From Chloroflexota bacterium (GTDB lineage: Bacteria > Chloroflexota > Dehalococcoidia > SM23-28-2 > RBG-16-64-32), in NCBI GenBank assembly GCA_022561635.1, contig JADFQV010000017.1:1-34991 (forward strand): a DNA stretch of 34,991 nucleotides. Direction: 5' to 3'. Positions 14,792-16,782 of the stretch are shown here, one piece after another (the stretch's first letter is position 1; the number at the start of each line of letters is the position of its first letter). The position numbers and the translations under genes are program-made. Under the pieces are notes generated by a model. The model ran no database searches, was not told the DNA's origin, and saw only the letters and a program-made list of their open reading frames with translations.

Positions 14792-14892
14792 AGCGGCGTT
14801 CCGAGCACTAACACGCCCCGATCACACGTAACTGCCAAGCGGAGGGGCCGTCTTAGGTACTGTGGGACGCGAATAGCGCCGTACACGACTAC

Positions 14893-14990
14893 CGAAGGGC
14901 GAACCGCGCCGAAAGGGCGGGGCGCAAAGCTACGGGCCTAAGTCCGCTGAAGGTGGATACGGTCGCCTGGCCGCCGGTGAGACAGGCGAC
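14893..14990 (+). promoter_or_regulatory. c-di-GMP-I (GEMM) riboswitch with expression platform
   Basis: The class I cyclic-di-GMP aptamer core is readable in order: AGGGCGAACC (14896-14905), a GAAA-type loop hairpin CGCC-GAAAG-GGCG (14907-14919), GGCGCAAAGC (14921-14930), CGGGCCTAAG (14933-14942), then the second hairpin and GGTCGCC (14961-14967). GGCGAACC (14898-14905) pairs with GGTCGCC to close the aptamer, with one bulged A. The AGGGC keeps the G that favours c-di-GMP over cGAMP in this class. GTCGCCTG (14962-14969) is also the exact complement of CAGGCGAC (14983-14990), so the closing helix and a downstream hairpin exclude each other, as expected of a switch. No U-tract follows, so control may be by translation or Rho. 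The downstream genes are a GGDEF and an HD-GYP protein. Confidence 0.88.
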
Positions 14991-15061
14991 AAGAGTGGAG
15001 GCCCAGGTGGCTGTTTCGGCAGAACAAACGAAGCGCACGGGAATCAGGTGGAACGAGTCGT

Positions 15062-15919
15062 ATGCCAAACGGAACGAGTCTGGCGACTTTGGAACGCGAT
15101 CTGGCGCGCGAAGAAGCCAGCATCAGCCGCATAGCCTGGACAGGCGGAATCGCGGTCACGATCGTCACGGTCGCAGCCCTGATCGCCTTGTCGGTGGGCG
15201 TCGGCGGACAGTGGTGGCACTACGCCCTCTACTCGACAGCGGCGGGCGTACCCCTGGCTTACGCATTCTTCTGCATCGAGGTCATTCGGCGGATGCAACT
15301 CTCCGCCTACCATCGCTTCAAGGCAAGGCTGGTGATGCAGTTGACTGATCTCCAGGAACTAGTCTACAGGGACGAAATGACCGGTCTCTTCAACCGCCGG
15401 CACTTCTACGAAGTCCTCAAGATAGAGGTCGAGAAGACCCGCCTCTCCAGGCAACCGCTGGCGATCTTGATGATGGACCTCGACGGGCTGAAGGCGATCA
15501 ACGACGAGTACGGCCACAGCATCGGTGACGAGATCTTGACCAACCTCGGCAAGGCGATGGCCCGGCACACGCGCACGCACGACGTTGCGGCCCGCCTGGG
15601 CGGCGACGAGTTCGGTATCGTGATGCCGGGGACTGACAAGCGGGGCGCCTTCGCACTGGCGCAGCGCCTGTGGGAAGACCTGGAGCGGACGCCGATGTAC
15701 CAGGACGGCGACACGTCGATCGTGGTCACGATCTCCGTCGGCCTTGCGGGCTACCCGTGGGGCGGCGAAGAAGTCGAAGAACTGATCCAGTGGGCGGACG
15801 CGGACATGTACGCCAACAAGGTATCGCGAAAACTCGCCAAGAGCGGCGACGCCCTGATACAGCCCGTTGCCTCTCAGGGCATCGAATCCGCGCCTGGCGA
15901 CGAATACGGAAACGCTTAG
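15062..15919 (+). CDS. Membrane-anchored GGDEF diguanylate cyclase
   Basis: The 285-residue protein has two membrane helices (about 23-46 and 52-74), a coiled linker, and a complete GGDEF domain (about 100-265). The active-site motif GGDEF is intact (180-184). The inhibitory I-site RTHD (171-174) lies exactly five residues before it, so product inhibition by c-di-GMP is expected. Other signatures are DEMTGLFNRRHF and MMDLDGLKAINDEYGH. It should join two GTP into c-di-GMP at the membrane; no extracytoplasmic sensor of any size is present. AGGTGG lies about 10 bases before the ATG. It follows a c-di-GMP riboswitch and is 11 bases ahead of the HD-GYP gene, with which it surely forms an operon. 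Confidence 0.92.
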   Translation: MPNGTSLATLERDLAREEASISRIAWTGGIAVTIVTVAALIALSVGVGGQWWHYALYSTAAGVPLAYAFFCIEVIRRMQLSAYHRFKARLVMQLTDLQELVYRDEMTGLFNRRHFYEVLKIEVEKTRLSRQPLAILMMDLDGLKAINDEYGHSIGDEILTNLGKAMARHTRTHDVAARLGGDEFGIVMPGTDKRGAFALAQRLWEDLERTPMYQDGDTSIVVTISVGLAGYPWGGEEVEELIQWADADMYANKVSRKLAKSGDALIQPVASQGIESAPGDEYGNA

Positions 15920-15930
15920 GGGGCTCCGAC

Positions 15931-16782
15931 ATGTTGCAAGCAACCAGTCGACCAACCGGGCCGCGCCGCCTGATCGCGACGATTGCGTGGCTGATTCTCT
16001 TTGGCCTAACGCTGACTGTGACCGCGCTGGCCATCAACGCACTTGCCGCTACGACCGTTGGCTGCATGATCCTCTCGGCGACGCTGCTGCTAACGCTGCG
16101 CTCTCTGCGCCGCGAAAGAGAGATGGCGGAGAAGAGCGTCCAACGAGTGCATCAGAAGTACAACTCGATCGTCTCCGCCCTGACGGTGGCGATGGGGCTG
16201 CGCGATGACATGTCGGCCAGCCATGCGCGGCGTGTCAGCGACCTATCTTTCATCCTCGCCCAACAGATGAGAGTGGGCCACGAGGAAACACAGCTCATCC
16301 AGCGCGCCGCCGTTCTCGCGGACATCGGCAAGATGGAGATCGCTGAGGGGATTCTGTCCAAGGCAGGTGAACTGAGCGAACCGGAGTGGGCTGAAATGCG
16401 ACGCCATCCGGAACTCGGTTCCAGGATGCTGGCGGATATCCTCAACTTCGACGACGCCGCAGCGATCGTACTCGCCCACCATGAGCGGTTCGACGGCCAG
16501 GGCTACCCGCACGGGCTGAGGGGCGACGCCATCCCAATGGGATCGCGGATTTACGCCGTGGCCGACGCCTATATCGCGATGACGAGCGACCGGCCGCACC
16601 GCAAGAAACAGTCGCACGAGATGGCGCTCAGGGAGATACTCAGAAACTCGCTCACACAGTTCGACCCCGCGGTCGTGCGGGCGTTCGTGCGCGCCGAGGA
16701 GATGGACCTGTTCGGCGAGCGCGACGTTGCGGTGAACGGCCCCGAAGTCGCCGACTCGAGACCGGCTGCGGTCGCCGGGTAG
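15931..16782 (+). CDS. Membrane-anchored HD-GYP domain protein with degenerate HD motif
   Basis: The 283-residue protein has two N-terminal membrane helices (about 13-35 and 37-56), then an HD-GYP domain (about 75-260). The GYP signature HHERFDGQGYPHGLRGDAIP is complete (H183, H184, G191-Y192-P193) and H98 and H159 (RRHPELG) are kept. The HD pair, normally LHDIGK, reads LADIGK (A130, D131), so one metal-ligand histidine is gone. HD-GYP enzymes hydrolyse c-di-GMP to pGpG or GMP using two or three metals. Loss of this His could weaken or abolish catalysis, leaving a c-di-GMP-binding or partner role. The start at 15931 has AGGGGG 7 bases upstream; an in-frame extension to 15670 only overlaps the GGDEF gene. 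Confidence 0.9.
   Translation: MLQATSRPTGPRRLIATIAWLILFGLTLTVTALAINALAATTVGCMILSATLLLTLRSLRREREMAEKSVQRVHQKYNSIVSALTVAMGLRDDMSASHARRVSDLSFILAQQMRVGHEETQLIQRAAVLADIGKMEIAEGILSKAGELSEPEWAEMRRHPELGSRMLADILNFDDAAAIVLAHHERFDGQGYPHGLRGDAIPMGSRIYAVADAYIAMTSDRPHRKKQSHEMALREILRNSLTQFDPAVVRAFVRAEEMDLFGERDVAVNGPEVADSRPAAVAG

Follow-up and report, generated by a model that had tools for sequence, protein, structure and literature searches.

When a c-di-GMP riboswitch stands before genes for both a GGDEF protein and an HD-GYP protein, does the same switch set the synthesis and the breakdown of its own ligand? This question is raised by a locus in a 34,991-nucleotide stretch of DNA from an uncultured Chloroflexota bacterium (contig JADFQV010000017.1; hereafter the window, meaning the whole stretch analysed). 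An earlier note on this DNA had proposed such wiring, on the condition that the HD-GYP protein, taken as a putative hydrolase, is active.

A conserved c-di-GMP-I aptamer precedes a GGDEF/HD-GYP gene pair

A cmscan search (Infernal) against all Rfam families identified positions 14888-14978 (+) of the window as a c-di-GMP-I (GEMM-I) aptamer (RF01051), matching the full model (1-87) with 55.3 bits (gathering cut-off 35; E = 2.4e-8). The GEMM-I core that the earlier note had seen was thereby borne out, its start at 14893 lying inside this interval. It is the sole c-di-GMP-I match in the genome assembly (1.81 Mb, 83 contigs), which is an estimated 84% complete, and the missing part could hold another. 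The order aptamer, GGDEF gene, HD-GYP gene was shared by every one of the four species sampled in the genus, and the three other genomes also share with the window a cation-efflux gene before the aptamer. Their proteins show 80-86% (GGDEF) and 67-76% (HD-GYP) identity to those of the window over the alignment. A scan of genome contigs, in which the close relatives are metagenome genomes of Chloroflexi/Chloroflexota, gave only those three orthologues again and a single distant match.

Across the four species, 84 of the 91 aptamer positions (92%) were invariant, compared with 56/97 and 7/18 (i.e. 39-58%) in two stretches upstream of it and 65/100 third codon positions in the first 100 codons of the GGDEF gene. 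The 5' strand of P1 (UACCG, 14890-14894, +), which by reading of the sequence pairs with CGGUG at 14975-14979, is invariant, and P2 carries one compensatory pair (C-G/U-G/U-A). In the aptamer helices, 92.6% of the cells were paired, a value that shuffles do not separate from chance with only four rows. The riboswitch observation therefore holds and is far better than chance would give. Position 14898 (+), which we take to be the equivalent of the ligand-contacting G20 of Vc2, is a G in all four orthologues according to the Rfam and ortholog alignments. In GEMM-I aptamers, a G at position 20 marks the c-di-GMP type and an A the cGAMP type.

The first gene encodes a predicted diguanylate cyclase

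The gene at 15062-15919 (+) encodes a 285-aa membrane GGDEF protein, a predicted diguanylate cyclase (PF00990, 141 bits; TIGR00254, 155.7 bits against a cut-off of 37.4), with two N-terminal hydrophobic segments read from the sequence. An I-site, RTHD (RxxD; 15572-15583, +), stands five residues before the GGDEF active-site motif (15599-15613, +), just as the earlier note had described, and RxxD is kept in all four orthologues, being RAHD in one. By sequence and ortholog alignment, the window protein has the GGDEF motif, the metal Asp and the canonical substrate Asp (Asp156), and both the motif and Asp156 recur in every orthologue; Hypr enzymes have Ser at the place of this Asp156 (PMC6456294). 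The G at the position-20 equivalent and the substrate Asp of the canonical type both speak for c-di-GMP over cGAMP as the nucleotide of this operon. As a side observation, the start codon of the window's GGDEF gene is replaced by ACG in one orthologous locus (L030, near 6128), which has an ATG in the same frame 9 bases further upstream.

The HD-GYP protein has a degenerate metal site

The second gene (15931-16782, +) starts 11 bases past the GGDEF stop codon (gap 15920-15930), a spacing that had been noted correctly, and encodes a 283-aa membrane protein with an HD-GYP domain (PF13487, 108.5 bits). Pfam detected no PAS or Cache domain in it, only N-terminal transmembrane segments and the HD-GYP domain being present. 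The residues were compared with those of PmGH, using a numbering set from chain 4MCW (offset 6), which agrees with the naming of D308 in PMC4212101. At the dyad (16318-16323, +) the protein reads LADIGK, so that the catalytic HD histidine (H221) is an alanine; this Ala-Asp is shared by all four orthologues and three same-genus paralogues. In the window protein, E185 is also replaced, by Met, and D308, an aspartate needed for PmGH activity, by Ile, the latter being Ile, Thr or Val in the four orthologues. H189, D222, H250, H276, H277 and D305 are retained, as are R314 and the GYP motif. In one genome (G008), D305 is Glu in addition to the change of H221 to Ala. The intact GYP motif, HHERFDGQGYP (16477-16509, +), is identical in the four orthologues, and HHER..G.GYP is invariant in 13 aligned relatives. 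The HDIG model TIGR00277 was absent from the window protein, below cut-off in two orthologues and above it in a relative that keeps the HD (L112). A single-sequence structure prediction of the HD-GYP protein was too poor to be used (mean pLDDT 56).

Two Vibrio cholerae HD-GYP proteins without an intact HD motif are inactive, and VCA0681 is active despite replacement of its D308 equivalent (PMC4212101). The loss of both the dyad histidine and D308 makes breakdown of c-di-GMP by the window protein unlikely, although partial metal binding and weak activity may persist because D305, D222, H189, H250, H276 and H277 remain. Since the V. cholerae proteins lacking HD are inactive and DvhD, discussed below, binds the nucleotide without hydrolysing it, the window protein is most likely a catalytically dead c-di-GMP receptor and/or a partner of the cyclase. 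The label of putative hydrolase in the earlier note had overlooked the Ala-Asp dyad.

Four other HD-GYP proteins encoded in the genome keep all scored metal ligands except E185, and c-di-GMP can therefore be degraded elsewhere in this organism; EAL, PilZ and MshEN domains were not found. Several further proteins were recorded alongside. Motif inspection alone revealed two HD-GYP-like stretches in a 474-aa protein of the genome (G000:C76:5235-6659, L119), one without a recognisable HD motif and the other reading HDVGL. A second HD-GYP paralogue in the genus (L109, L110, L111) has AD for HD and no GGDEF neighbour, adjoining a nitroreductase-family gene in L109. In two HD-GYP orthologues (L029:3064-4146, -; L030:6994-8067, +), the N-terminal membrane segment (~76 aa) occurs twice in tandem; the window protein and L031 lack this duplication.

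Ligand losses and riboswitch wiring among relatives

The GGDEF/HD-GYP pair was also found in six genomes from another four genera of the family, giving five genera in all, and the four of these loci that were tested have an amidohydrolase gene in front of the pair. Three genomes of one other genus have Arg for H221 and Glu for H189, and two other pair-bearing genomes have Tyr or Asn for H189, while G014 has no such ligand loss; D308 is lost in all HD-GYP proteins of the gene pair but that of G014. Thus, metal ligands were lost repeatedly and at different places in the family's pair, with the GYP face intact. In a tree whose root serves for drawing only, twelve degenerate HD-GYP proteins grouped together (support 97/93), as did those with AD (100/99) and those with RD (100/100). 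The simplest account of this pattern is that catalysis was relaxed once and that ligands were then lost independently. No riboswitch was detected upstream of the pair in the other four genera down to E = 1, so that, within the family, the sampled genomes show riboswitch wiring in one genus only.

In a sample of the phylum, the aptamer was present in 90 of 400 genomes. Among 80 aptamer sites chosen from the best-scoring ones and each read 3 kb downstream, a GGDEF or HD-GYP domain was encoded at four, each in a genome of the window's class, and the HD dyad was intact in all four HD-GYP domains. In three genomes of another family of this class (L164, L165, L166), the aptamer is followed by a sigma-70-family factor with regions 2, 3 and 4, FliA/WhiG-like by eye, and then by a MASE9/HD-GYP protein that retains every metal ligand; here, c-di-GMP may control the sigma factor and a phosphodiesterase together. 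In L151 (G380:C1), the aptamer is followed by a 214-aa protein without a Pfam match, an HD-GYP protein with an intact HD, and then a GGDEF protein.

Competing helices in the leader and the sign of control

The 3' strand of P3, GUCGCCUG (14962-14969, +), is also the 5' arm of an anti-P3 hairpin, whose 3' arm is CAGGCGAC (14983-14990, +). All 8 pairs of this hairpin are kept in the four species, and it appears in the free MFE structure of three of them. Further downstream, a second anti-aptamer strand (14999-15012, +) can pair with the 5' strand of P3 (14928-14939); 95.7% of its cells are paired, with two pairs broken in one species. Taken together, both helices keep 97.5% of their cells over the four species, among which neither helix has compensatory changes. 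Once the transcript extends past the second strand, the ensemble without the aptamer P1 is favoured by ~8-10 kcal/mol in all four species, and any switching would therefore be kinetic.

No intrinsic terminator or U-tract was found in the leader, and no sigma-70 promoter was found upstream of it by consensus. Access to the Shine-Dalgarno-like AGGTGG of the GGDEF gene (15046-15051, +; read from the sequence), folded with and without the aptamer, did not change consistently over the four species, and the attempt to call ON or OFF from folding was dropped for this reason. By topology and analogy, c-di-GMP would somewhat more probably switch the operon ON, because the mutual exclusion of aptamer and hairpin resembles that of the pilM ON switch and because, in a locus of the same family (L039), one aptamer overlaps a perfect 12-bp terminator with TTTT in an ON layout. 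In the two aptamers of L039 (2179-2266 and 4660-4747, -), the position-20 equivalent is an A (TCAGAGC), the base found in cGAMP-type GEMM-Ib. An overlapping frame that starts with GTG (15007-15348, +) and is preceded by a G-rich stretch runs uninterrupted for 104-113 codons in each of the four species; it was considered as a leader peptide and rejected for want of a clear coding signature, and is probably an artefact of GC-rich sequence.

A proposed self-sensing module without its own hydrolase

With a c-di-GMP-I aptamer at the head of the transcript and a predicted cyclase, its I-site intact, encoded behind it, the plainest reading of this locus would be self-sensing of one messenger in two steps, one at the RNA and one at the protein level. 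The favoured interpretation, which we hold with moderate confidence, is of an operon that senses its own c-di-GMP and encodes no hydrolase for it, made up of a riboswitch, an I-site cyclase and a pseudo-HD-GYP receptor or partner. In the proposed mechanism, the nascent leader would fold into the c-di-GMP-I aptamer, and if c-di-GMP were bound in the short time before ~15000-15012 is transcribed, P1 and P3 would hold; if not, both P3 strands would be taken by the downstream anti-aptamer helices. The switch would thus set the expression of the membrane diguanylate cyclase, which is predicted to be product-inhibited at its own I-site, and of the membrane HD-GYP protein, which has lost catalytic metal ligands and kept its GYP face and would act as a c-di-GMP receptor and/or cyclase partner, not as a phosphodiesterase. 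With regard to the earlier note, its observation is confirmed and its interpretation partly supported. The self-sensing steps of its RNA-level and protein-level loops fit the synteny in four species, and these parts stand as a reading of the RNA and the cyclase, but the word feedback has to be used without a sign. Its proposal that the same switch also sets breakdown does not stand, given the Ala-Asp dyad in all four orthologues, the replaced D308 and the inactive V. cholerae proteins.

That last proposal, in which the cyclase and the HD-GYP phosphodiesterase are both active and one switch sets synthesis and breakdown, is in our view unlikely. It could draw on the HD_5 Pfam match, the GYP motif and most metal ligands being kept, as well as on the existence of such wiring with an intact HD-GYP in the same class (L151, L164-L166), yet the dyad histidine is Ala in the orthologues and three paralogues alike, and the V. 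cholerae precedents (PMC4212101) argue against activity. We regard it as similarly improbable that the aptamer is real and the HD-GYP protein a decaying remnant, with only the loop between riboswitch and cyclase mattering. The HD-GYP gene does evolve faster (whole-gene dN/dS 0.29-0.74, vs 0.21-0.26 for the cyclase gene), and its metal ligands were lost again and again; however, the dN/dS of 0.14-0.58 in its HD domain indicates that this domain is constrained, the reading frame is intact in all four species, the GYP residues do not vary in the 13 relatives, and the pairing with the cyclase has been kept in five genera.

Very unlikely, finally, is the reading in which the aptamer lies between cistrons and responds mainly to a different cyclic dinucleotide (cGAMP), or in which it controls another leader frame. 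The conserved openness of the GTG frame and the G-rich stretch upstream of it would favour such a frame, but open frames over GC-rich genes are common and the changes inside 15007-15348 are not mostly synonymous; against another ligand stand the position-20 equivalent, which is G and not A in each of the four species, and the cyclase with its canonical Asp rather than the Hypr Ser. Returning to the module without its own hydrolase, a more specific version is possible though rather doubtful: the leader RNA, the I-site and a cyclase-tuning pseudo-HD-GYP would be three sensors of the operon's own product, and a family gene pair already devoid of catalysis would have acquired a riboswitch in a single genus. 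With an ON switch, such an arrangement could lock c-di-GMP at a high level, up to the limit set by the I-site. If true, the locus would be a case of an HD-GYP enzyme that has probably become a receptor within the very operon responsible for its ligand, with the steps dated in sequence: first the pair, then the loss of catalysis, then the riboswitch. It would offer a compact natural system for testing RNA-level against protein-level feedback on one messenger. It also cautions against equating riboswitch, GGDEF and HD-GYP with synthesis and breakdown before the HD dyad has been checked.

Comparison with known systems

The window leader is like other RF01051 riboswitches in aptamer sequence, structure and 5' leader position, and differs in that the genes paired with the aptamer encode a cyclase and a degenerate HD-GYP protein and in that no intrinsic terminator was found. 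In the pilM riboswitch of Geobacter metallireducens, an ON switch with cGAMP as the ligand, the competing hairpin is a terminator (PMC9262584); aptamer fold and hairpin are mutually exclusive there, as they would be with the anti-P3 hairpin, whereas the window hairpin has no U-tract after it. The predicted cyclase has the GGDEF active site and RxxD I-site in common with PleD/WspR-type cyclases, with two N-terminal transmembrane helices instead of their receiver domains. The HD-GYP domain matches PmGH, the Persephonella marina HD-GYP phosphodiesterase (PDB 4MCW; 98.9 bits, E 3.5e-27), and has the domain and GYP motif of such phosphodiesterases without their HD dyad and full set of metal ligands, Met, Ala and Ile replacing three PmGH residues as described above. 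A parallel for the HD-GYP protein is DvhD of Desulfovibrio vulgaris, in which HD is replaced by SQ and c-di-GMP is bound and not hydrolysed (PMC13090378). Both are membrane proteins that lost the HD dyad and kept the nucleotide-binding fold and nucleotide-facing residues, binding by the window protein being predicted. DvhD lost more ligands (SQ for HD, MN for HH), has a dCache-PAS-HD-GYP architecture, of which dCache and PAS are absent from the window protein, and works with an adhesin protease (PMC13090378). GEMM aptamers upstream of diguanylate cyclase and phosphodiesterase genes, among others, have already been described (review PMC3971182, citing Sudarsan 2008); what is new here is the conserved pairing of such an aptamer with a degenerate HD-GYP.
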